This document shows, in pieces, positions 10,947 to 32,224 of a stretch of 64,000 bases of DNA. Each line of letters opens with the position of its first letter. The stretch's first letter is position 1. Both the position numbers and the translations under genes were made by a program. The notes under the pieces were generated by a model. That model ran no database searches. It saw nothing but the letters and a program-made list of their open reading frames with translations, and was not told the DNA's origin. Origin of the DNA: a virus; the IMG/VR virus record IMGVR_UViG_3300044835_000064, positions 1 to 64,000 of that record; one strand, written 5' to 3'.

Positions 10947-11082
10947 GGTGACCTGTGGGGGCATGGGGGTGGGATGTCAAAGGTCGGCGACCGCAAAACC
11001 GTCTGCCGCATTTCCGCGCGTGTCTCCACTTCAGCTATTTGAAGGTTTGAAGTGGAAAAAAATCTAAAAACCAATCGCCTGA

Positions 11083-11487
11083 ATGCCGCAGCCTAGAACT
11101 CCCACCGCAAAACTCGAAGCTCGCGGTGCTTATCTCAAGCACCCAGAACGCAAACGAGCCCGAGCACAAGAACCGCAACCAACCGCTGATCTTGGTGATC
11201 CACCGAAAGAACTCAATGCCGAAGAAAAGAAAGCATGGCTCTACATCGCAGGTTGTCTCACGCCTGGAGTCGCGAAAGTTTCTGACCGGATTGCGATGGA
11301 AGAAGCTGCTTGCCTGCTCGTGACGTGCCGGTCGAAACGCGCGACCGCCGCCGAAAGAAATCTGCTGAAAGCGTATCTCCGAGACTTCGGAATGACGCCA
11401 GCCGATCGCAGTCGCGTGCAAGCGAGCGCACCGCCAGCAGCAAAAGACAAGTGGGCCGAGTTCGATCTTCCGAAACAAACACAATAA
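11083..11487 (+). CDS. Terminase small subunit, P27 family
   Basis: A 134-aa protein. The P27/Terminase_4 layout is visible: AKLEARGAYLKHPERKRAR at the N-terminus, PKELNAEEKKAWLYIAGCL, VSDRIAMEEAACL and a C-terminal segment ending KDKWAEF. The small subunit recognises the phage packaging site and hands DNA to the large subunit. Its 3' end overlaps the likely start of the large subunit. Confidence 0.88.
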   Translation: MPQPRTPTAKLEARGAYLKHPERKRARAQEPQPTADLGDPPKELNAEEKKAWLYIAGCLTPGVAKVSDRIAMEEAACLLVTCRSKRATAAERNLLKAYLRDFGMTPADRSRVQASAPPAAKDKWAEFDLPKQTQ

Positions 11488-13277
11488 TTTCCCATGTTGC
11501 CCGGTCGAATCGTTTCATCGCAGCCGTTCTCGATGGCAGTCTTCCCGCGTGTAAATGGGTGCGTCTCGCCTGCCAGCGACAACTTGACGATATCGCAAAG
11601 CAGACTGATGAAGATTATTCCTACCGCTTCGACAATGCCGCAGCTGAGCGGGTTTGTAGATTCGTTGAACTCAGCCCGCACATCAAGGGCAAGAAGTTTG
11701 CCGGACAACTCATTCATCTCGAAGACTGGCAGTCGTTCATTCTCACAACCGTCTATGGATGGCTTGATCGATTCACGGGTTTGCGACGGTTTCGGCGCAG
11801 CTACATTGAAGTCGCCAAGGGCAACGGCAAATCCGCGCTCACTTCCGCACTCTCAAATTACATGGCCTTCGCCGAAGGCGAGCCGGGCGCCGAAGTGTAT
11901 TCCGCAGCCACGAATCGAGATCAAGCAAAAATCATCTGGTCCGTCTCTCACGCCATGCTGCGAGCCATGCCGGAATTTTGCGAGCGCGCGGGCGTCGAAC
12001 CTGTGGCGCACTCCATCAATCAGATACAAACGAACTCATTCTTCCGTCCGCTCAGCTCTGAAGCCAACTCCGCCGAAGGCGTGCAGCCCTATTTCACGTG
12101 CGTCGACGAACTACATGCCCACCCGAGCCGCGATCTCTACGACAACCTCGATACGGCAAACGGGAAACGGCAAGGGTCATTGCTCTGGTCGATCACCACG
12201 GCAGGCAGTGATCGCGCCGGCATCTGCTATGAGCAGCATAGTTACGTCACAAAGATTCTGGAGCGCGTCGCCGAAGACGAATCGTATTTCGGAATCATCT
12301 TCACGCTCGACAACGAGGATCTTTGGACCGAGGAAGAAGAACTTAAGAAAGCGAATCCCAACTGGGGCGTGTCGGTCGATCCAGTCGAGATCATGCACAA
12401 GGTTGGCAAGGCGCTTCAGATGGCCAGTGCGCAGCCGACTTTCAAAACCAAGCACGGTAACATCTGGTGCAACGCGGACCATGCATGGATGGATTTGCAA
12501 CGCTTAGCCAAATGCGCGGATCCAACGCTGGACGTGAAACAGTTCGCTGGTGAGCGCTGCGTCATCGGGCTTGATATCGCCTCGAAACTGGATTTGCTGG
12601 CAAAGATCAAACTCTTCTGGCGCGACATTCCCACGGTGATTGAGGAAGAAGAAGTCATCAAGCGGCACTACTACTTTTTCGGCGATTACTGGACACCCAA
12701 AGCCCGCATCGAGCAGAGCAACAACAGCCAATATCAAGGCTGGGCGATCGAGGGAAAACTTCACACCTGCCCGGGTGAGACCAACGATCACAGCATCGTC
12801 GAAGATTCAATCCGAGAGGATTGTAAGAAGTTTGACGTGCTCGAAGTGGCGCACGATCAATGGCACGCGGATCAGATCGTCGGCCATCTTCAGCCGGAAG
12901 GCATCCTGATGGTCGAGGTGCCGCAGATCCCAAAACAGCTATCAGCGCCAATGGTTGAGATTGAAGCGGCAATTTACGATGGACGTTTTCACTTCGATGG
13001 CGATCCCGTATTGATGTGGTCCTTCTCAAATGTCGTCTGCCACATTGATAAAAACGACAACTTCTTTCCCAACAAAGAAGGCTTTGAAAAGAAGATTGAT
13101 CCCGTCACCGCCCTGCTCACCGCACTGCGGAGAGTCATGGACATCGGGGGCGACGTCTCGGGCGGTGGCGGTTGCTCTGTCTTCGCAAAGTGTGCGAAGT
13201 GCATGTCAGTTGTCGAAGGGCAGATCGTTGCGGGAAAGATGATCTTTGATTGTGGGAAGCATGGAGGGAAAGCGTGA
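11451..13277 (+). CDS. Terminase large subunit
   Basis: About 608 aa if started at GTG 11451, a start chosen because frame-open sequence farther upstream overlaps the small subunit and looks non-coding. The ATPase domain has the Walker A-like AKGNGKSALTS near residues 122-131 and Walker B CVDELHAHPSRD near 215-226. The nuclease domain begins with CVIGLDIASKLDL and continues with the HDQWHADQIV segment. This is the motor that translocates and cuts DNA at the portal, of the HK97-like Terminase_1 family. The exact start is uncertain. Confidence 0.93.
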   Translation: MGRVRSSETNTIISHVARSNRFIAAVLDGSLPACKWVRLACQRQLDDIAKQTDEDYSYRFDNAAAERVCRFVELSPHIKGKKFAGQLIHLEDWQSFILTTVYGWLDRFTGLRRFRRSYIEVAKGNGKSALTSALSNYMAFAEGEPGAEVYSAATNRDQAKIIWSVSHAMLRAMPEFCERAGVEPVAHSINQIQTNSFFRPLSSEANSAEGVQPYFTCVDELHAHPSRDLYDNLDTANGKRQGSLLWSITTAGSDRAGICYEQHSYVTKILERVAEDESYFGIIFTLDNEDLWTEEEELKKANPNWGVSVDPVEIMHKVGKALQMASAQPTFKTKHGNIWCNADHAWMDLQRLAKCADPTLDVKQFAGERCVIGLDIASKLDLLAKIKLFWRDIPTVIEEEEVIKRHYYFFGDYWTPKARIEQSNNSQYQGWAIEGKLHTCPGETNDHSIVEDSIREDCKKFDVLEVAHDQWHADQIVGHLQPEGILMVEVPQIPKQLSAPMVEIEAAIYDGRFHFDGDPVLMWSFSNVVCHIDKNDNFFPNKEGFEKKIDPVTALLTALRRVMDIGGDVSGGGGCSVFAKCAKCMSVVEGQIVAGKMIFDCGKHGGKA

Positions 13278-16078: not shown

Positions 16079-16528
16079 ATGGCTGATTCTTTTATCCAAG
16101 TACCTGCGGACGGGGCAGGGAAGAAAGTCTATGCCCAAGACACTGGTGACGGCTTTCTCAAGCAGGGCGTCATTCTACTTCCCGGCGCGATGCCGCATGG
16201 CTGCGCAATCTATCACGTAGTTTCCGCAGGAACGACCAACGGCGCGAGCGTCAAAGCCTCTCCGGGTCAAGTCTACGGCTGGCGCGTCTACAACAACGCT
16301 GGCTATCCGGTGTATGTGAAATTGCACAACACGGCAGGATCTCCAACGCCAGGTGCGGGAGTAATTCAGACCATCGGCTTTGAGGCAGGCTTACCTGACG
16401 GTGAGTTTATCCCGGTCGGAATCGCCTTCAGCGTTGGCATTGGAATTTCCATTGTGAAAGGCATCGCCGATAGCGATGCCACGGCGGTCGCCCTCAACGA
16501 CTGCGTCGTTGATCTCTTCTATGCGTAA
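16079..16528 (+). CDS. Beta-rich decoration-like protein, family member 1
   Basis: A 149-aa protein starting directly after the previous stop. Residues 60-149 (YGWRVYNNAGYPVYVKLHN, then GIAFSVGIGISIVKGIADSD) match the C-terminal domain of the protein at 16594 and, more weakly, that at 17803. It lacks a signal peptide, unlike those two. Likely a surface protein of the capsid or an adhesin-like domain. Confidence 0.6.
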   Translation: MADSFIQVPADGAGKKVYAQDTGDGFLKQGVILLPGAMPHGCAIYHVVSAGTTNGASVKASPGQVYGWRVYNNAGYPVYVKLHNTAGSPTPGAGVIQTIGFEAGLPDGEFIPVGIAFSVGIGISIVKGIADSDATAVALNDCVVDLFYA

Positions 16529-16593: not shown

Positions 16594-17460
16594 ATGAACT
16601 CAAACCGTTTTACCAAAATAGGAATCATGGTGCTGATCGTAGCCGTCATGGCTTACGCGCAGCAGCCTGTCAACGTCAACAATATTCCGCACGTCGTCGT
16701 GGATACCGCGCCGACTACGGCAGTCTCTGAATCAGGGACGTGGAGCGTTCGAGCGCAAGATGGCGGCGGTAACGCGCTAACCTCGAACAGCACTACCTAC
16801 ACCGCAAAGTTTGGCCTTGATACCAACTTGCTTGGAACTCTAGGCACGGCTTTCACGACTGCTGGATTTGTTGACATCAAAGGCGCAGACGGCAATGTTT
16901 TTGTTCGCCAAGCGACCGGAACAAATTTGCACGCAGTCATTGATACCGGATCAACCACGGCCGTCACGCAGGCAACTGGATCCAACCTCCATGCCGTGCT
17001 GGACGCCAACGCCTCCGTCGTAATCGGTAAGGTCGCTATTGACCAAACTACGCCGGGAACGACAAACGCCGTCAGCTTCGCCGCGGGCAATACCATTGCC
17101 CTCGTGCCAGTCGCAACTGGCGGATTGCTGATGTCCCACACCATCACAGCAGGCACCGACAACGCTGCTCTGGTTTCAACTGCGGCCGCTCACCAGCTTT
17201 ACGAAGTGGACGTATTCAACAACGCTGCCTATCCCGTTTACGTTAAACTTTACAATGTTGCCGCTTCTCCAACTGGATGCGGTTCGACGGGCTTAGTAAA
17301 AGTTCTCGGCGTACAGGCTGGTACGGGACGAACGCTGGCGGAACCAATTGGCCTCGCGTTCGGAAGCGGAATCGGAATGTGTGTGACCAAAGGCATCACC
17401 AATGCGGACGACACGGCAACGGTTGCCAGCGATGCGACTGTCGACGTAGCGTGGAAATAA
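16594..17460 (+). CDS. Secreted decoration-like protein, family member 2
   Basis: A 288-aa protein with a Sec signal peptide (hydrophobic residues 10-22, cleavage after AYA-QQP). Inside are tandem repeats of the form TGTNLHAVIDTGSTTAV / TGSNLHAVLDANASVV. The C-terminal domain, VDVFNNAAYPVYVKLYN to GIGMCVTKGITNADD, is homologous to 16079-16528. An N-terminal export signal on a protein in the head module is unexpected, because virions assemble in the cytoplasm. It may instead be released to alter the host surface. Confidence 0.65.
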   Translation: MNSNRFTKIGIMVLIVAVMAYAQQPVNVNNIPHVVVDTAPTTAVSESGTWSVRAQDGGGNALTSNSTTYTAKFGLDTNLLGTLGTAFTTAGFVDIKGADGNVFVRQATGTNLHAVIDTGSTTAVTQATGSNLHAVLDANASVVIGKVAIDQTTPGTTNAVSFAAGNTIALVPVATGGLLMSHTITAGTDNAALVSTAAAHQLYEVDVFNNAAYPVYVKLYNVAASPTGCGSTGLVKVLGVQAGTGRTLAEPIGLAFGSGIGMCVTKGITNADDTATVASDATVDVAWK

Positions 17461-17802: not shown

Positions 17803-18990
17803 ATGCGAAGAATACTTTTAGCTTTTGCGCTGCTCCTTGTGTCGCAGCTTGCCTTGGCGCAGCAACCGGTAAAGGTCACGGACGGCTCTGGTGCGGCTGC
17901 GGTATCCAGCGGCGTCAATGGTCTGCAACCCATTGGCGGCTACAGCACGCAAAACACGTCAGATGCGGCATGGACCTCGGCGACATCGAATAACACGCGC
18001 GTCACGCTCATCAGCAACATCGCAACCTACAACTCAATTCTTGTTACTTTGGTGCAAGGAACAACGATCACGGGTGGCACGATCACCCTGCAACAATCAA
18101 ACGATAACTCCAACTGGATCGGAGTGCAGTGCGTGGCAGTTGGAACCACAACGATTATGGGTCCGACGTACACTCTGGTTGCTTCTACTAACGTCATGTT
18201 TATGTGTCCGGTGAGTGCGCCCTATTTTGGCGTCTTACTCTCACCAGCGATTACAGGATCAGGAACTGTCACGGTTGGACATAACGCTTTAACCTTGCCG
18301 TCAGTTGGACTCTTGGCAGGCACGGAAACCTTGGCAGCAGGTACGAACGCCATTGGCAGCGTCCAGATTACGGACGGCACGAATGCTCAAGGAGCCATGG
18401 CGAACTTCGGAACCGCCCCCGGTGCCGTGAAATCCTTGAACACTAATTCTAATTTGTTCGTAGGCGGGACTGTAGTATCTGGGTCGGCTCCCGTTCCAAT
18501 CTCAGCAACCACGGCAGCGAATACTAAAACAAACGAGATATTTTCCAACATTACGGACCATACAAACTCGCTCTCGGCTGCGATCTCTGCCCTTGGAACG
18601 TCTCCAACCGGAACCGACGTGATGGCGGTTAATGCCGTGCAGTTGGCGAGTACGGCGGCAGGTGCGGCCTTGAGCAGCGCAGCCAAGGCTACCGTCACCA
18701 GTTCGGTCAATGTAAAAGCCTCGGCGGGTAACGTCTATGGCTTATCTATCCTGAATGGTGCGGGCGCAGGTTGCTGGCTTGAACTTATCAACAGTGCGAG
18801 TGCGGGAACACTGGGAACGGCGGTGATTTTTAATATCGCTTTACCTACTTCGGGAACTCTTACGATTCCGCCCGGCGCTCTTGCGCTGGGTAATTTCAGT
18901 AGTGGCATTGCAGTCGGTGCGGCAAGCGCGGTAGGTGGCGCGTCGGCTTGCGGTACGGCGGTGACTGGAGTCACGGTCTTCTACCAATGA
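17803..18990 (+). CDS. Secreted decoration-like protein, family member 3
   Basis: A 395-aa product from the ATG at 17803 (MRRILLAFALLLVSQLALAQ), a clear signal peptide with cleavage after ALA. The mature protein is Ser/Thr/Gly/Ala-rich, beta-strand-like and low in charge, and the middle repeats TDGTNAQGAM-type motifs. The C-terminal 100 residues (VKASAGNVYGLSILNGAGAG) follow the same plan as the family domain in 16079 and 16594. Its stop overlaps the next start (ATGA). Confidence 0.65.
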   Translation: MRRILLAFALLLVSQLALAQQPVKVTDGSGAAAVSSGVNGLQPIGGYSTQNTSDAAWTSATSNNTRVTLISNIATYNSILVTLVQGTTITGGTITLQQSNDNSNWIGVQCVAVGTTTIMGPTYTLVASTNVMFMCPVSAPYFGVLLSPAITGSGTVTVGHNALTLPSVGLLAGTETLAAGTNAIGSVQITDGTNAQGAMANFGTAPGAVKSLNTNSNLFVGGTVVSGSAPVPISATTAANTKTNEIFSNITDHTNSLSAAISALGTSPTGTDVMAVNAVQLASTAAGAALSSAAKATVTSSVNVKASAGNVYGLSILNGAGAGCWLELINSASAGTLGTAVIFNIALPTSGTLTIPPGALALGNFSSGIAVGAASAVGGASACGTAVTGVTVFYQ

Positions 18991-19724
18991 AACGCCTTCT
19001 CTATCTCATCCCGCTTCTTTGTGTCTTATGCGTAGGGCAGGGAATGTGGTTACGATCATCGAGTGCTGCGGCTGTCTTGACCCCGCCGACTCTAGTTTCC
19101 TACACCCAAACCTCTTGGGATACGACGGGATACACAGGCACCAGTAAGAGCACGGCTTCAGTAAGTTGGAATTCTGGCGATATTTTAGTAGTGCTTATGG
19201 GAAGGGAAATCGCATCCGCCGGAGCAGTCGGAACTCCGACCGCTGCAGGTCTTACTTTTTCCTTTGTAGCGGGCAACAATCCCGGCACCGACGCTTTTAC
19301 TTGCGCTTCAGGTGTTTGGACTGCTACTGCCGGTAGTAATGGCTCCGGCGCGATCACGGTTAACCTCGTCAGTAGTTCTCAGAACAGTGGATTCGGCGTT
19401 TGGGTATTTCGTAACTCTCAAGGCGTCGGCAATCATGCCGAGCAGCACACCGCAACGAAAACCGTCAGCCTGACACCTATTGCCGCCGATGGAGCGATCG
19501 TCTGGGGAGTTTTCGATTTTGCTGCAACAGCAATAACCGGAATCTCTGCCACTCCGACTCCTACCGATGAACGACAGAAGGTCTTGGTCGGCGGCGGCGC
19601 TTATACGATTTACGTCGAAGATCTCACCGATCAAACCAGCGCAGGTTCAGTTTCTTACGGTATTACTGGCGGATCAGGAACAGGGCCATTTTCCATTGTT
19701 TCCCTAGAGATCAAGCACCAATAA
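18987..19724 (+). CDS. Secreted beta-sandwich-like protein
   Basis: A 245-aa product with a signal peptide (LLYLIPLLCVLCVGQG) that could be a lipoprotein-type leader. The mature part alternates Ser/Thr-rich strands (SVSWNSGDILVVLMGRE, VNLVSSSQNSGFGVWVF). It is similar in plan to the N-terminal insert of the tail hub at 36971, where TLAGNTIVALVALEGG and NFIWIFEID occupy matching places. Possibly a carbohydrate-binding or surface protein. Confidence 0.6.
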   Translation: MKRLLYLIPLLCVLCVGQGMWLRSSSAAAVLTPPTLVSYTQTSWDTTGYTGTSKSTASVSWNSGDILVVLMGREIASAGAVGTPTAAGLTFSFVAGNNPGTDAFTCASGVWTATAGSNGSGAITVNLVSSSQNSGFGVWVFRNSQGVGNHAEQHTATKTVSLTPIAADGAIVWGVFDFAATAITGISATPTPTDERQKVLVGGGAYTIYVEDLTDQTSAGSVSYGITGGSGTGPFSIVSLEIKHQ

Positions 19725-20445: not shown

Positions 20446-20706
20446 TTGGCGATACGCGACATTCTTACCAGAGATTTTATGGCCGAAGCACGGATTGATT
20501 TTTTGCAGACCTTTCTCGAATCAATTTATCTGAGGTCTGAACTAGCCGCAGATGTGCGCAAGCTTTGCGGTTTGCGAACCTTGATTGAACTAGCCGCAAG
20601 AGAGCACGCGATTCCATGCCCATATTTTCCATTTCTGCCCAATAATCCGCGACGTAAAACGAGTCAGCACACCAAACAACCTTCAGGAGAAAAACATCAT
20701 GATTGA
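20446..20706 (+). CDS. Hypothetical small protein
   Basis: An 86-aa product (TTG 20446, or ATG 20479 giving 75 aa) with a helical core, RIDFLQTFLESIYLRSELA. Its 3' end overlaps the prohead protease start. Confidence 0.4.
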   Translation: MAIRDILTRDFMAEARIDFLQTFLESIYLRSELAADVRKLCGLRTLIELAAREHAIPCPYFPFLPNNPRRKTSQHTKQPSGEKHHD

Positions 20707-21508
20707 ACGAAGATTCGTAAAGGGCGCACAGGTACGCGCCATGCAAGGCGATAAGCCAGGAATTGAAGGCTACGGTGCGGTGTTTGGGGAAGAGTACGTT
20801 CTCTGGGATTCTCCCACGATGCGCATTGTTGAGACCATCAAGCCGGGAACCTTCAGTCGGTCCTTGCGAGAAAAGCAGGACGTTCGTTGCCTATTCAATC
20901 ACTCTGCCGACAACGTTCTCGGACGCACGGCGAATGACACGATGCGCATGACGGAGGATTTGAAAGGTCTACGCTACGAAACCGATTTCGACATGCGGAC
21001 CCGCATTGGCAATGATGTGCGTTGCTTCGTAGAACGCGGCGATGTCACCGGTTGCAGTTTTTCGTTCAACGTCACGAAGCAAGAGCGCACGGAAATCGAA
21101 GAGAACGATAAGCTCACCATCCGGCGAGAGATTCAAGATGTTGATATGTACGACGTCGGGCCGGTTACATTCCCAGCCTACGAGGGAACAGGAGTCAAAG
21201 CTCGGTCAGTGGAATTGCGCTCCGTGTTTCCCGATGGCCTTTCGGCTTCGGAGCGGTCGCATGCTCCAGTCGAACTACGCGAACTGATCGATGCTGGACC
21301 GATAGCTGGAACACCATCCGACGATGGCGATGGTGACAATGAACCCGATAACGACGATATGGAAACCTGCTCCTGCCGTTGCGAAGCCTGCTCAGGATGC
21401 ACGGAGCGAAGCAAAACTCCAACTGCGGAACAACGCGAAGAGCCTGGCATTTCACTCGAGCAAGCAAAGGCGCGGACCGAAACGCTCATAGCGCAACAGA
21501 GTCTGTGA
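20699..21508 (+). CDS. Prohead protease, HK97 (U35) family
   Basis: A 269-aa protein. The serine protease fold is recognisable by GIEGYGAVFGE, IKPGTFSRSL, the catalytic histidine in FNHSADNVLGRT (H68) and the catalytic serine in GDVTGCSFSFNV (S120), then VGPVTFPAYEGTGV. It cleaves the capsid delta domain and scaffold during maturation. The C-terminal 80 residues are acidic with an EACSGCTERSKTP Cys segment and may be a scaffold-like tail. The CSCRCEACSGC cluster is unusual. Confidence 0.92.
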   Translation: MIERRFVKGAQVRAMQGDKPGIEGYGAVFGEEYVLWDSPTMRIVETIKPGTFSRSLREKQDVRCLFNHSADNVLGRTANDTMRMTEDLKGLRYETDFDMRTRIGNDVRCFVERGDVTGCSFSFNVTKQERTEIEENDKLTIRREIQDVDMYDVGPVTFPAYEGTGVKARSVELRSVFPDGLSASERSHAPVELRELIDAGPIAGTPSDDGDGDNEPDNDDMETCSCRCEACSGCTERSKTPTAEQREEPGISLEQAKARTETLIAQQSL

Positions 21509-21807
21509 ATCCCGCGATGTTGGTAAAGCCGAGAATATGCATCGACTTCGATGGCACCATTTACACGGGTAACGCCTCAAATCCCATCTTCCCCGGCTGC
21601 ATCGTGGGATTGACGGAGCTTCGCAAAACGTACAGCGTGGCCATTTTCTCCGCACGTCCGACCGACGCAGAGCGTGTGCAGATGGTGAGGATTCTTGACG
21701 AGCAGGGCGTTCCCTATGACGAAATTATGCCCATAAAACCAGATGCCAGTTTCTATCTCGATGACAAGGGGCGAAGGTTTGAAGGCTGGGATAAGGTAGT
21801 GCTGTGA
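21505..21807 (+). CDS. HAD-like phosphatase-type protein
   Basis: About 100 aa. The start is GTG 21505, overlapping the protease stop, or ATG 21517. ICIDFDGTIYTG is the HAD motif I (DxD with nucleophile and acid), AIFSARPTD resembles motif II, and DASFYLDDKGRRFEGWD ends with the acidic motif. It is a minimal HAD fold found in many phages. The substrate is unknown. Next to sugar-transferring enzymes it might act on a sugar phosphate (inference). Confidence 0.75.
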   Translation: MNPAMLVKPRICIDFDGTIYTGNASNPIFPGCIVGLTELRKTYSVAIFSARPTDAERVQMVRILDEQGVPYDEIMPIKPDASFYLDDKGRRFEGWDKVVL

Positions 21808-21809
21808 AA

Positions 21810-21977
21810 TTAGAAGTTGTGAATCAGATCGCGAAGCACCTCAAGCGCTTTTTCGGAATCCTCTACCGACAGATGATCCCACGCTTCATCCTCAACCAAA
21901 TTGGCGATTGTCTCGGCAGCCTTTTCCAGTTGTTCGCTTTGCTCGGGGCTTTCCGGTTCGTAAAGACGACGCATCAT
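21810..21977 (-). CDS. Small acidic helical protein on opposite strand
   Basis: A 55-aa frame on the minus strand, MMRRLYEPESPEQSEQLEKA to LEVLRDLIHNF. Its acidic, helix-favouring composition is more protein-like than the hydrophobic frame on the plus strand at 21804-21998. It fills the gap between the HAD and glycosyltransferase genes. Tentative. Confidence 0.4.
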   Translation of the reverse strand: MMRRLYEPESPEQSEQLEKAAETIANLVEDEAWDHLSVEDSEKALEVLRDLIHNF

Positions 21978-21994
21978 GGTGCGGCAATCCTAGC

Positions 21995-22774
21995 ATGAAA
22001 CTTCTAATCGTACTTCCGGTTAAATCCGGACAAGGCGGTGCGCACTATCCCATACGTTGGGAGATGTGTCAGTCCACATGGCTGAAGGACTCGCCCGTCG
22101 ACTTCCACGGCTTCACGGACGCAGACTTAGGACTCACGGAGATCGACCAGCACCAGAATGCCATTGATCCCATCCGCACGCTTCGAACTCAGTTGATGGT
22201 CCGCTGGGCGCTCGAGCGTGGCTACGACTACCTCTTTCGCACGGATACCGATACCTACGTCTGGGTGAATCGATTGCTGGCTTGTGGATTTGAGAAGCAC
22301 GATTACATGGGATGGTGTGTAGGCTTCCCGCGACACTTGGAGCAGGACTGGGCCATGAATACAGCGCACGGTGGCGTCGGATTCTTCTTGAGCCGAAAAG
22401 CCATGGAGATTGTGGCAAACGCGCCCGTCGAGAAATATGTGGATGGCAAGTACTGGGGCGACCTCTGGGCCGGTCATCAGCTCTGGAAGCAGGGCATCTA
22501 TTGCCATCAAGATACGCGCTTTCTCGATGGTTCGAGCGGCAATCACGCCGAGCACAATGGCAACATCAGCGCCGACGAGTTACCGCTGGATCATCCCTAT
22601 GTTGCGATTCATCCCGTGCCCTTCGCCAACATGCAGGCAATTCACGACAAGTTCAAGAATATCGGCGCAGAGACTTCGGTGCCTGCAAAACAACTGTGGG
22701 GAAAGCAAACCTACTACGCTTACGGAACGAAACGTCCGAATGTTTGTCAGTGCGCTTACTGTCACTCTTCATGA
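21995..22774 (+). CDS. GT31-like glycosyltransferase 1
   Basis: A 259-aa product from ATG 21995 (MKLLIVLPVKSGQGG). It has the Fringe/galactosyltransferase layout: an N-terminal strand, RWEMCQSTWLKD, GYDYLFRTDTDTYVWVNRLL with the DxD-type metal site near residue 84, then the GGVGFFLSRKAMEIV loop. A CQCAYC end motif may bind zinc. Such enzymes transfer a sugar from a nucleotide-sugar donor. The stop overlaps the ATG of the methyltransferase, so both are made together. Homologous domains occur at 23699 (twice) and 29447. Confidence 0.8.
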   Translation: MKLLIVLPVKSGQGGAHYPIRWEMCQSTWLKDSPVDFHGFTDADLGLTEIDQHQNAIDPIRTLRTQLMVRWALERGYDYLFRTDTDTYVWVNRLLACGFEKHDYMGWCVGFPRHLEQDWAMNTAHGGVGFFLSRKAMEIVANAPVEKYVDGKYWGDLWAGHQLWKQGIYCHQDTRFLDGSSGNHAEHNGNISADELPLDHPYVAIHPVPFANMQAIHDKFKNIGAETSVPAKQLWGKQTYYAYGTKRPNVCQCAYCHSS

Positions 22775-23460
22775 GAACCGTTAACATCCACGGCTTCAGC
22801 TTCTCAGTTGAGTCTGAGCCGAAAGACTACTGGGACTGGATCGAGCAAGGTACCTACCACGCTGACTTTGAAACCATCACGCGATTCGCTGGGCCGGAAG
22901 TTACCTGCATCGATGCCGGCGCCTGGATTGGAGCGGACACGCTCTATGCCTCGAAGATGTTCAAGCACGTTCACGCCATCGAGCCTGACCCAGTAGCGTT
23001 CCAAATTCTAAGCAAGAATCTGGCTGCCAACCAACTCAGCAACGTGACGCTCTATGAGCACGCTTTAATGGGACATTCCGGCACGACCACAATGGGCGGA
23101 AGTATTTTAGGCTGCTCCTGCACACGCGAGACCTGCAAAGACAACTCGGTGACGGTACCTTGCCTGACTTTGCGCGAATTCTGCAAAGACATTCCTGATC
23201 CTCTGTTTATCAAGATGGATACGGAAGGCGCCGAAGCGCAGATTCTCAAAGACTGGCAATTCTTCTCCGAGCGCAAACCGGACTTGATGCTGAGCACACA
23301 TCTTCTGTGGTGGAAGGAAGCAGGCTCGGACGGGCGTGCGGAATACGAACCTATCACTAAAGTAGGGAAACTCTATCGCAGCGCAGTCCACAATGGAAGC
23401 AGAACTCCAGTAGATTTCAATACAGAGTATGGAGACGTCGTTTTTACAGACAAGGAGTAA
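22771..23460 (+). CDS. FkbM-family methyltransferase
   Basis: A 229-aa product starting at the ATGA overlap. The FkbM fold is supported by TCIDAGAWIGADTLYASKMF (SAM-binding glycine loop), HVHAIEPDPVAFQILSKNL (acidic ribose-binding residue), and LFIKMDTEGAEAQILKD with LSTHLLWW. FkbM enzymes O-methylate sugars or similar groups. Coupling to a glycosyltransferase gene suggests methylation of the transferred sugar. No membrane segments; cytoplasmic. Confidence 0.85.
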   Translation: MRTVNIHGFSFSVESEPKDYWDWIEQGTYHADFETITRFAGPEVTCIDAGAWIGADTLYASKMFKHVHAIEPDPVAFQILSKNLAANQLSNVTLYEHALMGHSGTTTMGGSILGCSCTRETCKDNSVTVPCLTLREFCKDIPDPLFIKMDTEGAEAQILKDWQFFSERKPDLMLSTHLLWWKEAGSDGRAEYEPITKVGKLYRSAVHNGSRTPVDFNTEYGDVVFTDKE

Positions 23461-23464
23461 TTTT

Positions 23465-23692
23465 ATGCGAATAATCTTTAACGTTCCGAAGGGAATGTCG
23501 CAACAAGCGGCCAGAGCCCTTGCTGTGCTCGACGGTTCTGGGATCATTGAGCAAATCGGTTTCGAACCTTGGGACGAGAGCTCGACCATCCACCAGCTTT
23601 TGAATGCGGGATTTCCTGCGGAGAAAACGGCTGAGATTCGACTCACGAATCGTGACAAGCACCACTTGGAGCCAGTAGGAAAATCGGCCTAA
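23465..23692 (+). CDS. Hypothetical small protein in glycan cassette
   Basis: A 75-aa protein (MRIIFNVPKGMSQQAARALA) that starts 4 bases after the methyltransferase stop and ends 6 bases before the next glycosyltransferase. Alpha-beta composition. Unknown; possibly an accessory or acceptor protein. Confidence 0.5.
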   Translation: MRIIFNVPKGMSQQAARALAVLDGSGIIEQIGFEPWDESSTIHQLLNAGFPAEKTAEIRLTNRDKHHLEPVGKSA

Positions 23693-23698
23693 GTATCC

Positions 23699-25900
23699 AT
23701 GCCTCCCGAAATCACTTTAGCGGTCACGAGTTGTCAAAGGCATGACCTCTTAGAGAGAACCTTGCGCAGCTTTGACCGCTACTGCTCGCACATCAAAGAG
23801 ACCATCATCGTCGAAGATAGCGACCTTCCAGCGCCGGAATGGCTGGCAGAACTCGCGAATATCGGGCCGAAGACTTGGATCTCGAACGGCGTTCGGAAAG
23901 CACAAGTCTATTCCTGCGATCGTCTGATGGCGGAAGTCAAAACGCCTTATGTTTTCTGGTGCGAGGATGACTGGGAATTCTCCCGGCCGGGATTTATCGA
24001 AGAGAGTTTAGAGATTTTAGAGAAGTTTCCCAATGTTCTGCAAGTCTGGTTGCGCGACGATTCCACGCATCCCGTCGTGAACGATGAGCGCTTTCCCTTT
24101 CCAATCATGCAACCGGAGTGGAATGCGGGATGGAGCGGATTTGCCTTCAACCCCGGGCTGCGCAGACTGAGTGACTACCAGAAGATTGGAAGTTACGGAC
24201 GTCACGTCGGCTATGACACGCACTTTGTAGGAGAACTGGCGCTTTCTAAACTCTATTACGGACTCGGATATTTCGCTGCGAAGATTCCGTTAGCCGTGAA
24301 GCACATAGGCGATAACGGTCGGCACGTTCCTTGGGCTACCGCCTCGAAACCTCCGAAAGTCCTGATCGCGATTCCAGCCTGCCACAAATACGACTATACG
24401 AATGATCCGGCAAAACTCACGCGCGACACTTCTGGACGAATTGAAGCCCAGCGCGATACCTGGCTGAAAGATATCAAGGCATTTTCGAGCTACGTCGACT
24501 ATCGAATCTTCTACGGGCGCGGTGCAGGACGGGCGTCCGAATCGGATGAAATCTTTCTCGACGTGGACGATGACTATATGCATCTGCCACAAAAGATGCG
24601 TGGCATCTATCAATGGGCTCTGGAGCATGGCTACGACTACATTTTCAAGTGCGATGACGACACGTTCGTCTATGTCGATCGCTTGATGGCGAGTGGATTT
24701 GAACAGTGGGACTACACCGGATTCTGCTTCCACCGGACAGGAAACTACGTCTCGGGCGGTCCGGGCTACTGGTTGAGCAAGAAGGCCATGCAAATCATCG
24801 TCAACGCTTCCCCGGAACACTGGGCAGAAGACTTATGCACGGGCCGTGAACTCATGCGTAATGGGATCAAGCCTCACCGGGATGCGCGCTATCTTCCTGG
24901 ATTCGCGAAGCACTTTGTCGACCTCGATGCCCTTCCGGCGGATCACAGCTACATCTCATTTCATGCCTGCACGCCAACCATGATGCAGCGACTCTACGAC
25001 GCGAATCCGACCCCAACCTTCCGCTTCGTCGATCAGGCCATGGGCGAACCAGTTCACCCGAAGCATCCGGAAACCATGCCGAAAACGGTTCCGACTTCAC
25101 GCGAAAGCTATCAGCACATCGCCGCGCTTGGATTCTCGAATTCTTATGCCTTCCCGCGCGTTTTGATTGGCATCCTTTCCTGCCATCAGAGAACTCCGGG
25201 ACCGCAGGCGCAGCGCAGAACGTGGTTGAAGGATGCCGTTCGGCTGGCGATTGAGTACCGCTTCTTTCTCGGCGCGCCGCAGCAACCAATACCTTTCGAT
25301 CCGCGGCGGCCGGAATCGGCCAGAATCGAAAGCGAACGGATTATTCGGCCATTACCCGATCAAGTCTTTCTTGACGTTCCCGACACCTACGCGCAACTTC
25401 CGCAGAAAACGCGGGCGATGATCCGCTGGGCCTACGACAAGGGCTATGACTTCCTTTTCAAATGTGATGACGATACCTTCGTGCATGCGGAACGACTACT
25501 GCAATCCGATTTCTCGAAGCATGATTACTCCGGCTTCGCGCGCACGACGAGCGTTTTCGGTGCCGGGAAAGAAGTGACCCATGCGCAAGGTGGCGCCGGT
25601 TACTGGCTGAGCCGGAAAGCCATGGCCTTAATCCTGAAATATGACTTCACCATGGAAGGCGCGGAGGATATCAACGTTGCCAGAGTGCTCTTCACGCTCG
25701 GCATCCCGCCCGTCCATGATCCCCGCTATCAACCATCCATGGCGACCATACCCATGCCGCTAAACAACCAGATCACGGCGCACGATTGCAGCGTCGAAGA
25801 CTTCTACGAGATTCACCAGCGATTTCAGTTTGACCCGTCCGCATCGCGCCCTCACGGGCTGAGCCAGGAGCTAAGCGAGCGTGGAATGGAGCGCGTATAA
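23699..25900 (+). CDS. Three-domain glycosyltransferase (GT2-like plus two GT31-like)
   Basis: A 733-aa protein. Domain 1 (about 1-215) is GT2-like: ITLAVTSCQRHDLLERTLRS and VFWCEDDWEFS with the metal site near 88-91. Domain 2 (about 220-460) is GT31-like with IAIPACHKYDY, AQRDTWLKD, YDYIFKCDDDTFVYVDRLMA near 313-325 and GGPGYWLSKKAMQI. Domain 3 (about 475-725) repeats it with IGILSCHQR, AQRRTWLKD, FKCDDDTFVHAERLL near 586-600 and GGAGYWLSRKAM. All three keep acidic metal motifs, so each may be active. A single chain with three transferases would build a short oligosaccharide. It lies directly upstream of the major capsid gene. Confidence 0.85.
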   Translation: MPPEITLAVTSCQRHDLLERTLRSFDRYCSHIKETIIVEDSDLPAPEWLAELANIGPKTWISNGVRKAQVYSCDRLMAEVKTPYVFWCEDDWEFSRPGFIEESLEILEKFPNVLQVWLRDDSTHPVVNDERFPFPIMQPEWNAGWSGFAFNPGLRRLSDYQKIGSYGRHVGYDTHFVGELALSKLYYGLGYFAAKIPLAVKHIGDNGRHVPWATASKPPKVLIAIPACHKYDYTNDPAKLTRDTSGRIEAQRDTWLKDIKAFSSYVDYRIFYGRGAGRASESDEIFLDVDDDYMHLPQKMRGIYQWALEHGYDYIFKCDDDTFVYVDRLMASGFEQWDYTGFCFHRTGNYVSGGPGYWLSKKAMQIIVNASPEHWAEDLCTGRELMRNGIKPHRDARYLPGFAKHFVDLDALPADHSYISFHACTPTMMQRLYDANPTPTFRFVDQAMGEPVHPKHPETMPKTVPTSRESYQHIAALGFSNSYAFPRVLIGILSCHQRTPGPQAQRRTWLKDAVRLAIEYRFFLGAPQQPIPFDPRRPESARIESERIIRPLPDQVFLDVPDTYAQLPQKTRAMIRWAYDKGYDFLFKCDDDTFVHAERLLQSDFSKHDYSGFARTTSVFGAGKEVTHAQGGAGYWLSRKAMALILKYDFTMEGAEDINVARVLFTLGIPPVHDPRYQPSMATIPMPLNNQITAHDCSVEDFYEIHQRFQFDPSASRPHGLSQELSERGMERV

Positions 25901-25974
25901 GTCCGCAAGCCGCGGATGTCAGGCGCGCGCAGTAACCAACCCAAAAAATCCCACACATTCACAAGGAAAAATAT

Positions 25975-27360
25975 ATGAGTGCAACTACAGTTGTCATTAC
26001 TGACGCTGCGAAGCAGAATGCGCGCGCCAGAGTCGTTCTTGTAGCCCGTGATCTAAAGGTGCAGGAGATGCTTGACCTCACCAAGGATAACGGCTCATGG
26101 AACAGCCAAGTTAACGGCGAGGAAGCCAGCAAGCGCTGGAATACACTGAGCACCGAAGTTGACCAGATGGCGGAACAAGCGAATGCCATCGGAATCAGCG
26201 ACGCGCTCGGCGAAGCGCAGCGCTCGTCAACCGCGCCTCCACAGCCACAGCCCGGCACAGAAACGCTCGGCAACCGTCATACAGCAACCACGCCCGAAGA
26301 CAGGGCAAAGAGCGTTCGCGAGAAGCTGGACAGCCCTGAATATCGCAGTGCATTCGTGGAATTCTGCCGGCGCGGCGAAAGCAAGATGTCCCGCTCCAAT
26401 CAGGACATCCTCGAAGGTATCAACCAGGAAGCCCGCACCTATTCAGGGCTACAGACTCCTACCTCCGGCGACGGCGGCGGATACACGGTTCCCATTGGAT
26501 TTCAGAAAGAACTCGAAATCAAGATGAAATCCTACGGACGGATGCTGGAAAACTGCCGCATCCTGAATACCTCCACCGGCAACACGTTGGATTGGCCGAC
26601 CATGGATGACACCAACAACAGCGGCGAATTCCTTGCGGAAGCCGCTCCGGTGAACCAACTCAACCCAACCTTTGGGCAGATCCAATTCGGCGCAAATCTC
26701 GCATCCTCGAAGCAGGTACTGATCAGCGTACAACTGCTGCAGGATTCGGCGTTTGATCTGGAAGGACAACTCACCGATGCGTTTGGCGTCCGTCTTGGCC
26801 GCATTCTGAACAACAAATACACGCTGGGCAACGGCGCAGGCGTTCCTAAGGGACTCGTCTATGCCATCCAGAACGACGCAGTTCCAAACGTCGTGAATGC
26901 AGTCGGCTCTAACTCGAACGACGGCATCAGCGGCAACACGGAAGCAAACTCCATCGGCTCCGACGATCTGGACAACCTGATCTCGGCAGTCGACCCGGCC
27001 TACAGAACGAACGCCAAATTCATGATGAACTGGAAGACGATCGACTTCCTGCGCAAAGTGAAAGACAAGTACGGTCGTCCGTTGTGGGTTGCATCCTTGG
27101 CAGTCGGCGAACCGGATCGCATTTTCGGCTACGCTTTTGACTGGAACGCAGACATGGACACCGTTGGCGCTGGAAAATACCCAGTACTCTTCGGCGACTT
27201 CTCGAAGTACGTTATTCGCAATGTCGGCGGGGTCACGGTCGTTCGTTATAACGAGCTTTACATGCCAAATCACCAAGTGGGCTTCCAAGCCTTCTTGCGA
27301 ACCGATGGGCAGCGCCTCCAACAAGCGGCGTTTTCACTGCTTTACAACCCCCTGTCCTAA
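25975..27360 (+). CDS. Major capsid protein, HK97 fold
   Basis: A 461-aa protein. Residues 1-115 form a helical, charged delta-like region (ATTPEDRAKSVREKLDS). The mature shell follows with GGGYTVPIGFQKELEIKM, EAAPVNQLNPTFGQIQF, LSAVDPAYRTNAKFMMNW-like segments, FGYAFDWNADM and NELYMPNHQVGFQAFLRTDG. The order matches Phage_capsid proteins. Maturation is by the protease at 20699. Gly/Asn/Ser-rich loops (VGSNSNDGISGNTEANS) could be exposed and are plausible glycan acceptors (inference). Confidence 0.95.
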   Translation: MSATTVVITDAAKQNARARVVLVARDLKVQEMLDLTKDNGSWNSQVNGEEASKRWNTLSTEVDQMAEQANAIGISDALGEAQRSSTAPPQPQPGTETLGNRHTATTPEDRAKSVREKLDSPEYRSAFVEFCRRGESKMSRSNQDILEGINQEARTYSGLQTPTSGDGGGYTVPIGFQKELEIKMKSYGRMLENCRILNTSTGNTLDWPTMDDTNNSGEFLAEAAPVNQLNPTFGQIQFGANLASSKQVLISVQLLQDSAFDLEGQLTDAFGVRLGRILNNKYTLGNGAGVPKGLVYAIQNDAVPNVVNAVGSNSNDGISGNTEANSIGSDDLDNLISAVDPAYRTNAKFMMNWKTIDFLRKVKDKYGRPLWVASLAVGEPDRIFGYAFDWNADMDTVGAGKYPVLFGDFSKYVIRNVGGVTVVRYNELYMPNHQVGFQAFLRTDGQRLQQAAFSLLYNPLS

Positions 27361-27381
27361 TCAACAGAGGTAACACCCGAA

Positions 27382-27411
27382 GGTCGGGAGCAAACTGCTC
27401 CCGGCCTTTTT
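27382..27411 (+). terminator. Rho-independent terminator after capsid gene
   Basis: GGTCGGGAGC, loop AAACT, GCTCCCGGCC, then TTTTT. The stem is 10 bp with one G-U pair. It follows the major capsid stop by 21 bases and would set capsid mRNA apart from the connector genes. Confidence 0.93.
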
Positions 27412-27430
27412 CATTGCCATCAATTTTCTT

Positions 27431-28633
27431 ATGTCATCCATCGTAGAAGTTTCGCAGTCCTTCACGGAACCGGTTGATCTGGCTACCGCCAAGCAATTCC
27501 TTCGCCTACCACTCGTAGACAGTCTAGGGAATGCCATTGTTGGACCAGATGATTCCTTGATCTCAAATATCTTGATTCCTGGCGCGCGGAAGCAACTGGA
27601 AACAGCGCTCGGACTCACATTAGCAAATCGTCAATTTATCCAGTACGAAGACGGCTTTCCATCCTTTCCAAGCGGCCAGAATGCCTACGCTCCATTATGT
27701 GGCGCGGCGTTCCCGTTCTTCTTTGGCTACGGTCCGATTGCGAATTATCCCTTCGTTGGGGGAACGCAAAATTCTTCCGTCAGCCCGTTTGAGAAACGAT
27801 TGCTAAGAAGTCCGGTCACGGCAGTGAGTCGCATGACTTACATCGGCGTTGATGGGGAATCGCATGGTCTCTTGCCGGGAAGAGATTTCGTTGTCGACTT
27901 TGCGGCCTTGCCGGGACGGCTTTCGCCTTTGCCGGGAATGCGCTGGCCGATCACGATGAGCGGGCCGAATACGATCGCGATTTACTTTACAGCAGGCTAC
28001 TTGCCAACTGGATCAGCCAACGAAGACGTCTTGGATGGTGCTATCTGGCAAGCATTGCAGCCGGTCGCGCAAAACAGCTATGTCATCGATCCAAACGAGA
28101 ATATTCAGATTCAACTCGCGACGCAGGCAGTCACGGCGAAAACCGAACCGGTCTGGTCGAACACGATCGGGCAAACGGTTATCGACGGATCTGCACGATG
28201 GAAGAATTTCGGCCCTGTCACTCCATGGGCTGCGAACACAAATTACACCACGCCACAGATCGTGCAGGATCCGAACGGCAACTTGCAGGAGTTGATTGTC
28301 CCTAGCTTGACGAGCGGAGGCACGAATCCGACATGGGCTCTGAATCGGGGATCGACGACCACAGACAACTCGATCGCTGCGTGGGTAAATGTCGGCGCGG
28401 ACGAATCGCAAGCGGCAGTCGACCCGGCAAAACAGATTACGGAGTACGAGGCTAATGTCTCCATCCCGCCGCATTTCTACATGGCACTCCTGCAAATGAT
28501 TACGCACTGGTATCAAAACAGAGCCGTCATCGTCACGGTAGCTGGCGCGGGCGGGACGCACTTACCTTTGCCTTTGCACCTCGAAGAGATTATCGCGAGC
28601 GAACGCATCCTTGATTTCGGGCGAGGCCGATAG
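27431..28633 (+). CDS. Head-tail connector (gp6-like) with inserted repeat domain
   Basis: A 400-aa protein. The N-terminal part (LATAKQFLRLPL, SLISNILIPGARKQLETALG) and the C-terminal part (SIPPHFYMALLQMITHWYQNR) together make the HK97 gp6-like connector, usually about 100-200 aa. Between them, residues about 215-325 hold two copies of a W-x-N-x-G-x-T-DGSxxW motif (PVWSNTIGQTVIDGSARW and PTWALNRGSTTTDNSIAAW) joined by WAANTNYTTPQIVQDPNGN. This is a decoration-type repeat placed in the connector. The ring seals the portal after packaging. Confidence 0.82.
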   Translation: MSSIVEVSQSFTEPVDLATAKQFLRLPLVDSLGNAIVGPDDSLISNILIPGARKQLETALGLTLANRQFIQYEDGFPSFPSGQNAYAPLCGAAFPFFFGYGPIANYPFVGGTQNSSVSPFEKRLLRSPVTAVSRMTYIGVDGESHGLLPGRDFVVDFAALPGRLSPLPGMRWPITMSGPNTIAIYFTAGYLPTGSANEDVLDGAIWQALQPVAQNSYVIDPNENIQIQLATQAVTAKTEPVWSNTIGQTVIDGSARWKNFGPVTPWAANTNYTTPQIVQDPNGNLQELIVPSLTSGGTNPTWALNRGSTTTDNSIAAWVNVGADESQAAVDPAKQITEYEANVSIPPHFYMALLQMITHWYQNRAVIVTVAGAGGTHLPLPLHLEEIIASERILDFGRGR

Positions 28634-28634
28634 C

Positions 28635-29450
28635 TTGTCTTATATCGACCCTGGCTTGATGGATCGGCAAGTGGACATCTGGGATCGTCCACCGAATGCT
28701 CTTCCCGTGCTCTTTGCGGTGGGAGTCTTCGCGCAGATTACCGGAGTCTCGTCGAATACAGCGTCGGCAGTTTCCGCCTCGCTTGGGCAGAACATTGTCT
28801 GGCCGCGGACGCAGGGGAACGACGTTTCACTCGTTACACACAAAGTCATCATCCGCTACATGCCAGGATTAAAAAACCGCATGTATCTTGTCTACAACGA
28901 TCCCGACAATGGTGTTCGGCGATTTGATATTGACCGCATTGTCGATACGAACGAAAAAAAGTTTGAGTTAGAAATCCTGGCGCTTGAACGTTGTGACGGC
29001 GCTGATCCCTTCGATGCACTCCTGACCTCGACTGCGGACATTATGACGCGCGCGACTTCTGCCGGAGATAAACGGGGCATCTCAGACCCAGCCTTTACGA
29101 CGGTTGCGACCGGCATAGCCTGCCGAGTGGCGGCGAACAAGATTGCGGCCAAGGGTAAAGAAGATCGGGCAAAAAGTAAATTGGCTATCGCCTATCGCGA
29201 AGTGTTTCTACGCCCATGGTTTCTTGACCCATCTCCCGATGGTTCCTATGTCCCGTACACCGTGGTTGGAGGGATCACTTACAACACGCAACCCTTGACG
29301 CACAATCACTGGCTGCTGATTCCTTCCTCCACGGCAGTGAACTCAAATGGAGACGCGATTCCGGGCGAGCAGTATGACATCACAGAAATTGATAATCCGG
29401 GACTGATGCACCATCACTTGGAAGTGGCGTGTGAACTGGTGCTGCCATAA
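28635..29450 (+). CDS. Head-tail adaptor / joining protein
   Basis: About 271 aa from TTG 28635. LMDRQVDIWDRP at the start, then VTHKVIIRYMPGLKNRMYLV and RRFDIDRIVDTNEKKFELEIL match phage head-tail joining proteins, a small beta-barrel stopper. The second half (YREVFLRPWF to QYDITEIDNPGL) looks like a second barrel, so the protein may be a tandem fusion. Its stop overlaps a glycosyltransferase (ATAA). Confidence 0.75.
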   Translation: MSYIDPGLMDRQVDIWDRPPNALPVLFAVGVFAQITGVSSNTASAVSASLGQNIVWPRTQGNDVSLVTHKVIIRYMPGLKNRMYLVYNDPDNGVRRFDIDRIVDTNEKKFELEILALERCDGADPFDALLTSTADIMTRATSAGDKRGISDPAFTTVATGIACRVAANKIAAKGKEDRAKSKLAIAYREVFLRPWFLDPSPDGSYVPYTVVGGITYNTQPLTHNHWLLIPSSTAVNSNGDAIPGEQYDITEIDNPGLMHHHLEVACELVLP

Positions 29451-30151
29451 AGATTCTTATTTCTATACTTTCGTGCCACCGCTACAACGAGCGGAGAAAT
29501 GCGCAGCGGGAAACCTGGCTCAGTGAGATTATGAACTTTCCCGTTGACTACCTCTTTTTCCTTGGTCGAGTGCCGGAGCAACTGGAGCACGGTCCGCGGC
29601 CGACCACTGATCAAGTCTTTCTCGACGTGGCCGACGATTACGATTCCTTGCCGATGAAGACTCTTGCCATGCTGGCTTGGGCCTACGCCCGCGGCTACGA
29701 ATACGTTTTTAAATGTGACGATGACACGTATTGCCGGGTAGAACGACTGCTCGCTTCCGGCTTCGAGAATCACGACTACTCAGGCTTTCAGAAGATGTCG
29801 CCGTACTTTGGCAAGCCGGGCGTGGAATTTGCGCAGGGCGGGGCAGGGTACTGGCTCAGTCGCAGGGCGATATCCATCGTGTTGCGGGAAGAAGAAGCCA
29901 AGCGGCCAGCGGTCATCACGTTCCTTCTGAACGGCGGCCCGGAAGATATCAATGTGGCGCGCATCCTGAAAGCAGCGCATGTCCTGCTCTTCGACGACCA
30001 GCGCTATTGCCCCACAGTGGATTTCTGTCCGCGACCGGATAACGACTTCATCACCGCGCACAAATGCTCGGTGGACGAGATGCGAGAGATGCACCGCGCC
30101 TTTTCCGTAGATGATTTGGGTGCTTCACGCCGAGATGCCACAATCTCCTGA
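29447..30151 (+). CDS. GT31-like glycosyltransferase with non-AUG start
   Basis: About 234 aa. Protein homology demands an N-terminus KILISILSCHRYNERRNAQR, which no ATG, GTG or TTG serves. The only candidate overlapping the previous stop is ATA at 29447 (ATAA in place of ATGA). A canonical ATG at 29531 would lose the first strand. Motifs are YEYVFKCDDDTYCRVERLLA (metal site near 89-92) and GGAGYWLSRRAISIV. It is close in sequence to domains 2 and 3 of the protein at 23699. Confidence 0.78.
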   Translation: MKILISILSCHRYNERRNAQRETWLSEIMNFPVDYLFFLGRVPEQLEHGPRPTTDQVFLDVADDYDSLPMKTLAMLAWAYARGYEYVFKCDDDTYCRVERLLASGFENHDYSGFQKMSPYFGKPGVEFAQGGAGYWLSRRAISIVLREEEAKRPAVITFLLNGGPEDINVARILKAAHVLLFDDQRYCPTVDFCPRPDNDFITAHKCSVDEMREMHRAFSVDDLGASRRDATIS

Positions 30152-31141: not shown

Positions 31142-31696
31142 ATGCCAATCACACTAACCGGAAACACTGCTGACATTACGATTGGTTCGGCCGCACTTTA
31201 CGTCGCACCCGTCGGAATTGCTATCCCAACTTTAACCGGCAACGAATCAGACTTTGCCGCCTTTACGAAGCCCGGCTACACGAATGACGGCATTGAGTGG
31301 GACTATCAAGCCACGTTCTACGACATCAAGGTTGATGAGGTTTTGGGCATTGTCAAAAAGAAACTGATCAGCCATAAACTCACCATGACCACGAAACTCT
31401 CTCAGGCCAATCTGCAGAACCTGGCACTAGCCTGCGCGGGTGCCACCTTCAATGGAACGGATACGGTTACCTTCGGCTCCGTGGAAGATCCCCCGGAATA
31501 CGTGATCGGCTTTATCGGCGAGGCGCCGAGCGGCAAGACGCGCTTCGGTCTCGTCTATCGCAGCGTGTCCATGGGAGCTTCGAAGATTCACTACCACAAA
31601 AAGACAGAGATCACTTACGGCCTGTCACTGGAAGCGATGGTTGATTCCACGCAGCTTGTGCCCGCCGCCGATCTCGCCACCTACCGAGATTTCTAA
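31142..31696 (+). CDS. Tail tube (major tail) protein
   Basis: A 184-aa protein. It begins with a TGNTADITIGSAALYVAP strand; residues 44-57 read PGYTNDGIEWDYQA, followed by KVDEVLGIVKKKLISHKL. The rest is beta-rich with a SLEAMVDSTQL end. It forms stacked hexamers of the non-contractile tail. A fragment with the same 14-residue segment occurs at 9465-9665. Confidence 0.8.
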   Translation: MPITLTGNTADITIGSAALYVAPVGIAIPTLTGNESDFAAFTKPGYTNDGIEWDYQATFYDIKVDEVLGIVKKKLISHKLTMTTKLSQANLQNLALACAGATFNGTDTVTFGSVEDPPEYVIGFIGEAPSGKTRFGLVYRSVSMGASKIHYHKKTEITYGLSLEAMVDSTQLVPAADLATYRDF

Positions 31697-31765: not shown

Positions 31766-32224
31766 ATGTTTCGCATACTTGCGATGTACCTCAAGCTCGT
31801 TGCTTCGATGACGATCTTCAATACCTTGGTCACACACACCTGGAAGAATACGGTTACGGTTCCGGGACTCACCGCTCTGCCGGCCGACGCGCCGGTGCTC
31901 GTTACTGGCGATTATGCGGTTGAAGTTGAACAAGCCGTTGCAGCCGGAGCCACGAACGTTGAAATCGATGTGGGCACTATCGATAGAACCAAGATTGTCT
32001 CAATCGTCATCAACGCCGATTTAGTGGCGATGGATGTCTACACGAACGATGCGGGCGGAAGCTCCGGGCAGCACTTTGCTCTGGCAGCCAACAAGTCCGT
32101 GGCGTGGAATAACCAGATTCCAAACCAGACGAACCCGATCACGACCAGCATTACGAAGTTCTTCGCCAACAACGCGGCCGTCAAGGCAGGCGTCTTGCGC
32201 GTCGGCATCCTGCTCAATTCCTAA
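31766..32224 (+). CDS. Tail-associated beta-rich protein
   Basis: A 152-aa protein. MYLKLVASMTIFNTLVTHTW is followed by VTGDYAVEVEQAVAAGATNVEID and IVSIVINADLVAMDVYTND. Similar small proteins follow tail tube genes in related phages (impression). It has a good AAAGGAGA site upstream and a terminator downstream, so it may be highly expressed, perhaps as a tail decoration. Confidence 0.5.
   Translation: MFRILAMYLKLVASMTIFNTLVTHTWKNTVTVPGLTALPADAPVLVTGDYAVEVEQAVAAGATNVEIDVGTIDRTKIVSIVINADLVAMDVYTNDAGGSSGQHFALAANKSVAWNNQIPNQTNPITTSITKFFANNAAVKAGVLRVGILLNS

Follow-up and report, generated by a model that had tools for sequence, protein, structure and literature searches.

Virion glycosylation has so far been shown in a few mycobacteriophages. 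Papers citing Freeman 2023 (PMC12619734, PMC11600133, PMC11256854) state that the C-termini of mycobacteriophage capsid and tail-tube proteins carry glycans. In Corndog (cluster O), the genes of an O-methyltransferase (gp35), two glycosyltransferases (gp36 and gp37), and a GlcNAc-transferase (gp38) lie between the portal and protease genes. The Corndog authors suggested that the capsid, whose peptides were under-detected, is modified with glycans and methyl groups (PMC4351075). A later paper says that mycobacteriophage enzymes of this type modify the capsid and the tail tube (PMC11600133). Capsid glycans were also reported for Che8 (cluster F1), according to PMC11256854, which cites Freeman 2023. 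In the algal virus PBCV-1, the A064R protein joins a fringe-class (GT-A) transferase to a predicted methyltransferase, and it builds the major capsid protein's glycan and probably methylates it as well (PMC5408694). A literature search joining GT31 glycosyltransferases with phage capsids found no paper.

The window analysed here is a stretch of 64,000 bases, positions 1-64,000 of the IMG/VR record IMGVR_UViG_3300044835_000064 (65,153 bases in whole), of an uncultivated phage. On its plus strand, the late genes run from terminase (11310) and portal (13684) through several virion-type genes, the protease gene, a cassette of sugar-related genes, and the capsid gene to the connector, the head closure gene, a lone glycosyltransferase gene, neck and tail-terminator genes, and the major tail protein gene. 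The left neighbour of the cassette is a prohead serine protease (20699..21508; PF04586, 4e-39), and the right neighbour is an HK97-type major capsid protein (25975..27360; PF05065, 2.8e-48). The cassette begins with a HAD-like phosphatase-type protein of 96 residues (21517..21807; phrog_1238, 3.5e-14), which the first-pass annotation had recognised but had started at 21505. It is followed by a GT31-like glycosyltransferase (GT31a, 21995..22774), an FkbM-family SAM methyltransferase (22771..23460), and a three-domain glycosyltransferase of 733 residues (23699..25900), all named beforehand. A 75-residue ORF inside the operon (23465..23692), for which family searches gave no match, had been missed. 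Beyond the connector, the stop codon of the head closure or head-tail adaptor gene (28611..29450; PF05521, 1.6e-5; phrog_25, 8.9e-7) overlaps a further GT31-like gene (GT31d, 29447..30151). All these genes are on the plus strand. The overlaps of GT31a with the methyltransferase gene (ATGA) and of the head closure gene with GT31d are each of four bases (-4); both overlaps had been noticed beforehand. The HAD-to-GT31a gap is 187 bases, and the intergenic gaps after GT31a are -4, 1, and 6 bases. Since promoter- or terminator-like sites show no excess in the cassette region, I infer that the region is part of one late operon.

Several other features of the window were noted. The connector (27431-28633, 400 residues) has a long internal insert, and its residues 194-260 match the head-decoration family phrog_20658 (2.3e-8). 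Between the portal and protease genes, three proteins (16594-17460, about 17803-18990, and 18987-19724) have signal-peptide-like N-termini, as judged by eye and by hydropathy. A C-terminal region of the first two is also present in the 16079-16528 product, which has no signal peptide, and genes resembling this set were found in another record, L011 (3820-4476 and 4473-6713). It would be odd for a head operon to contain exported paralogues of a virion-type protein. Near the left end, two insertion-sequence-like transposase ORFs (4036-5094 and 5495-5992) were recognised by eye only. The early region encodes an RNA ligase (51264-51899; PF09414), a radical SAM protein (53554-54486; PF04055, below cut-off), an ERF recombinase (54727-55617; PF04404), and a DUF4326 protein (48319-48744).

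Like the mycobacteriophage type of virion-glycosylation system, the window has sugar transferases and a methyltransferase within or beside structural genes. There is a likeness in arrangement to Corndog, as known from its published description: a methyltransferase and several sugar transferases are inside the head genes in both, although the slot is portal-protease in Corndog and protease-capsid in the window. The first-pass description of the system as unusual is weakened by this precedent (PMC4351075) and by the capsid and tail-tube modification reported in PMC11600133 and PMC12619734. Che8 resembles the window in having three tandem glycosyltransferases (gp108-110). However, these match PF00535 with Methyltransf_24/TylF, PF00535, and PF01755, families other than those of the window, and their genes lie at the genome end rather than in a head operon. 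The hhalign probability was below 1% in all four comparisons made between Che8 and window glycosyltransferase profiles, so the cassette enzymes appear, by sequence, to be unrelated to the virion glycosyltransferases of Che8. PBCV-1 A064R is likened by published description, as another virus-encoded GT-A transferase with a methyltransferase; it differs in being a single polypeptide of an alga virus, and the capsid it serves is that of a chlorovirus instead of the HK97 type found in phages. Flagellin glycosylation was considered as a bacterial counterpart and dropped, as a motif search of 80 bacterial loci found no flagellin.

The enzyme families were assigned as follows. The methyltransferase is securely placed by sequence in the FkbM family (TIGR01444, 2.9e-25, 89.4 bits against a curated cut-off of 37.7; PF05050, 1.4e-12). 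PF01762 (Galactosyl_T, GT31) matches two stretches of the 733-residue protein (6.1e-16, 59.2 bits) and one of GT31d (8.5e-12, 45.7 bits) against a Pfam cut-off of 23, which makes the predicted GT31 assignment of domains b and c of the large protein and of GT31d secure. GT31a has no Pfam match of its own. Since it is homologous to these PF01762-positive siblings, sharing 43% identity with the second domain of the 733-residue protein (9.8e-29) and having its DTDTY motif aligned to the sibling DxD, it can be assigned to GT31 through them. GT31d is 49% identical to domain c. The large protein does contain three glycosyltransferase domains, as claimed, but the first (about residues 1-215) is GT2-like (TIGR04440, 1.4e-5; PF00535, 0.0015; both below curated cut-offs), not GT31-like; GT31 domains b and c occupy about residues 216-460 and 480-733. 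The acidic motifs listed beforehand (DTDTY, CEDDW, and three CDDDT) are all in place. An alignment of relatives shows invariant E-D-W and H residues in the GT2-like domain, and across 19 aligned relatives DxD (D319, D321), D378, H422, T254, and W255 do not vary. Solved human beta-1,3-galactosyltransferases were matched (4.8e-10) by a profile built from the four GT31 domains. An AlphaFold2 model of the 733-residue protein has three GT-A-type domains, which are predicted well (mean pLDDT 81, linkers poorly predicted), and Foldseek matched it to the human GT31 enzyme B3GNT2 (E about 1e-11) and to two-domain chondroitin and heparosan synthases. Unlike these bifunctional synthases, the window enzymes are soluble and come from a phage, and their GT2-like domain belongs to another family. 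The HAD-like protein has DFDGT and LDDK motifs and weak NCBIfam matches to HAD/EcbF-BcbF families. No membrane or hydrophobic segment was found in any cassette enzyme, and therefore the enzymes would act in the cytosol.

The start of GT31d deserves a comment. Its frame opens at 29435, and no ATG, GTG, or TTG codon lies at the conserved N-terminus; the putative ATA start at 29447 overlaps the TAA stop codon, and the first ATG is at 29531. The GT31d homologue in L006 and L012 starts with GTG overlapping a TGA stop codon (GTGA). The first glycosyltransferase gene of L011 likewise has no standard start codon.

The simplest reading is a methylated virion glycan, because the enzymes are soluble, belong to a late operon, have virion proteins as neighbours, and combine sugar transfer with O-methylation. 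I consider it fairly probable that a putative acceptor among the virion proteins receives an O-methylated glycan from these soluble late enzymes. The GT2-like and GT31 domains would transfer sugars from host nucleotide-sugars sequentially onto the virion protein, and the FkbM enzyme would O-methylate one sugar of the glycan. The HAD-like enzyme may support sugar-phosphate or nucleotide-sugar chemistry. The module would move between phages as a block, staying beside head genes for co-production with its acceptor. Points against a virion role are that many bacterial relatives of the GT2 domain are single genes, that two GT31 records have the gene far from the capsid gene, and that GT31d has no standard start codon.

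Is this cassette found in other phages? The 733-residue protein alone as a query had zero matches in viral contigs or isolate phages, and an alignment of paralogues was needed. Viral contigs were scanned with GT31, FkbM, and GT2-domain alignments, and three host-phage lineages resulted. The first lineage, with a PF05065-type capsid, includes the window, L020, L212, L221, L011/L010, and L006/L008/L012. The module lies just upstream of the terminase genes in L020 and L212 and 2 kb before the capsid gene in L221. L011/L010 share the backbone of the window and carry GT31 genes directly after the capsid gene; L011 has three of them, and FkbM was not found in its record. In L006/L008/L012, GT31 is 2.4-2.7 kb downstream of the capsid gene. 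The second lineage is L023/L024 (identical sequence in two records; capsid phrog_2522, 2.7e-42). L023 sits in an 83.8-kb IMG/VR record (G020) with the order protease, 690-residue ORF, HAD-GT31a fusion, FkbM, GT31-GT2 protein, 175-residue protein, and capsid. Its FkbM is 70% identical to that of the window, GT31a of the window is 53% identical to L023 8167-9297, and the HAD-like protein of the window shares 52% identity with the fusion in its N-terminal part. L023 lacks the third GT31 domain and GT31d. When all ORFs of the window and G020 were compared, only the cassette matched, besides one marginal match at 3e-4. The slot between the head-maturation protease and the capsid is alike, while the capsid families differ (phrog_10/PF05065 and phrog_2522).

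The third lineage has a phrog_1357 capsid (L085, L086, L088, L089, L090, L105, L042, L040, L043, L059, L216, and L092). In the first seven of these, FkbM and a GT2-GT31 protein are encoded upstream of small terminase, terminase, portal, scaffold, and capsid genes, the L042 contig ending in the portal gene. L040, L043, L059, and L216 have GT2-GT31 without a close FkbM, and L092 has the module about 2-3 kb downstream of the capsid gene. Members of this lineage carry an additional, second methyltransferase-like gene. In L086, a methyltransferase-like gene and a LicD-family gene (PF04991, 1.8e-9) directly follow FkbM (10666-11717), which suggests further decoration of the glycan, perhaps of phosphocholine type. 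For one phage of this lineage, a 99.9% identical contig had been binned with an Acidobacteriaceae genome (L131), binning being weak host evidence. An acidobacterial phage isolate, Tunturi 5, was reported with two galactosyl transferases (PMC11924767). Among 50,697 isolate-phage records, no relative of FkbM, the large glycosyltransferase, the lineage-3 bimodular glycosyltransferase, or the lone GT31 was found; a capsid query in the same collection had 433 matches. Other arrays were also seen. L017 (7909-12657) has a larger sugar set with a GT2-type gene, a bimodular glycosyltransferase, a GT31, and an apparent NDP-sugar epimerase/dehydratase about 4 kb from a terminase-like gene, while L007, L030, L037, and L049 each have three to five GT31-like genes in one phage record.

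The window and the third lineage have zero structural genes in common. Since the cassette is shared without shared structural genes, the module has evidently been exchanged between phages of unrelated structural genes. The first-pass annotation had named lack of recurrence beside head genes as the refutation of its proposal; the module recurs there in three lineages with three capsid families. The link from placement to a virion target is thereby strengthened, while the acceptor itself is still inferred. It is conceivable, though I hold it only tentatively, that a mobile virion-glycosylation cassette of eukaryote-type GT31 genes plus FkbM crosses lineages and settles next to head genes irrespective of capsid family, in some phages with its own small decoration or acceptor protein.

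How close is the association with head genes? The searches were seeded on the enzymes, not on head genes. The bimodular GT2+GT31 protein was found on 21 viral contigs, which represent 19 distinct sequences, and every one of them has a head gene (terminase, portal, scaffold, or capsid) no more than 4.0 kb away; the median distance to the closest head gene is 1.3 kb (n=21). The head-gene HMMs derive from the same lineages, and GT2-only and FkbM-only controls are not fairly scorable with them. A recognised head gene is near 9 of the 16 GT31-only loci where one was found, and in two GT31 records the gene is 17-24 kb away from the capsid gene. Six arrangements taken as independent random placements would give about 9e-5, a crude figure, the lineage-3 phages being mutually related.

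In another explanation, the enzymes act on the host envelope (LPS or another glycan), either at a late stage of infection or during lysogeny, and thereby mask receptors, exclude superinfecting phages, or bring about lysogenic conversion, and the head-operon site would only give late expression. Many relatives of the GT2 domain in bacterial genomes are single genes; by eye, the one inspected at L142 lies in an apparent LPS-core locus, and L278 looks like a prophage locus for the host surface. The window phage may be temperate, as it encodes a tyrosine integrase (60664-61779), but the cassette is about 30 kb from it. Known Gtr clusters of lysogenic conversion encode GtrA/GtrB membrane proteins near attP and the integrase; in contrast, the cassette has no membrane partner or GtrA/GtrB-like hydrophobic protein. 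Moreover, among the loci recovered, the bimodular GT2+GT31 protein with FkbM occurs only beside head genes, and an unrelated phage has the cassette in the same protease-capsid slot. Thus, host-envelope modification is unlikely.

If a virion protein is modified, which one is it? The capsid, a head decoration, or the tail-tube protein may be the acceptor. The major tail (tube) protein of the window (31142..31696, plus strand; phrog_885, 1.2e-4; phrog_117, 0.0026; Ig-domain phrog_2175, 2.3e-17) is one candidate. Another candidate, as acceptor or decoration, is a small beta-sandwich protein encoded just past it (31766..32224, plus strand). In L006, L008, L011, and L012, a small-protein gene directly follows the GT31 gene and is itself followed, in L006 and L012, by the tail-tube gene. 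The small window protein is a borderline distant relative of these GT31-following proteins (BLASTP 2e-6 for one pair; hhalign E 2.4e-4, probability 44). Its model has a pLDDT of 71, and the fold search gave only jelly-roll/cupin-like matches of a generic kind, all with E above 0.001. Another small-protein family adjoins the module in L092, L089, L105, and L059. The 115-residue family of lineage 3 (A5) has no detectable relation to the GT31-linked family (A6). No acceptor common by sequence was found between the window and G020 or between the window and lineage 3, because the former pair shares only the cassette and the latter no structural gene. The small proteins beside the glycosyltransferases are leads only.

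Such neighbours also speak to the suggestion that gaps in head operons tolerate insertions and that the cassette is a moron whose benefit lies elsewhere, such as in a glycan that is secreted or stays inside the cell. The variable glycosyltransferase set would suit a moron: L023 does without the third GT31 domain and GT31d, and L011 has three GT31 genes with no FkbM found. However, the enzyme set is conserved across lineages while the backbones differ, and small virion-type proteins adjoin the glycosyltransferases in several lineages. I regard this suggestion as improbable. The GT31 and FkbM families belong to the glycan chemistry of proteins, lipids, or small molecules, which counts against glycosylation of phage DNA. 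Glycosylation of a hydroxymethylated base in that DNA is most improbable: DNA hypermodification by glycosyltransferases of viruses is known (Pyle 2024, as cited in PMC12619734) and a radical SAM gene is present at 53554-54486, but the cassette is placed with head genes rather than nucleotide metabolism, and a thymidylate-synthase/hydroxymethylase-like gene (PF00303) is absent in 16 module records, with a positive control (a TET/JBP search, PF12851, had no match, its control also being silent).

Thus, glycosylation and O-methylation of a virion protein is the favoured reading. Virion glycosylation is already known in mycobacteriophages, and the cassette differs by enzymes apparently unrelated to those of Che8. 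Its recurrence beside the head genes of otherwise unrelated phages suggests a transferable kit for a methylated-sugar virion coat. A phage surface glycan is relevant to how phages bind their hosts, how stable they are in the environment, and how immune systems recognise them. If the virion reading is true, GT31 chemistry would gain a role in phages, with the capsid, the tail tube, and small beta proteins as concrete acceptor candidates, and virion glycosylation would be portable and spread over phage lineages unrepresented by any isolate in the collection searched. If the cassette is mobile regardless of capsid family, unrelated phages could acquire a ready-made O-methylated glycan coat.
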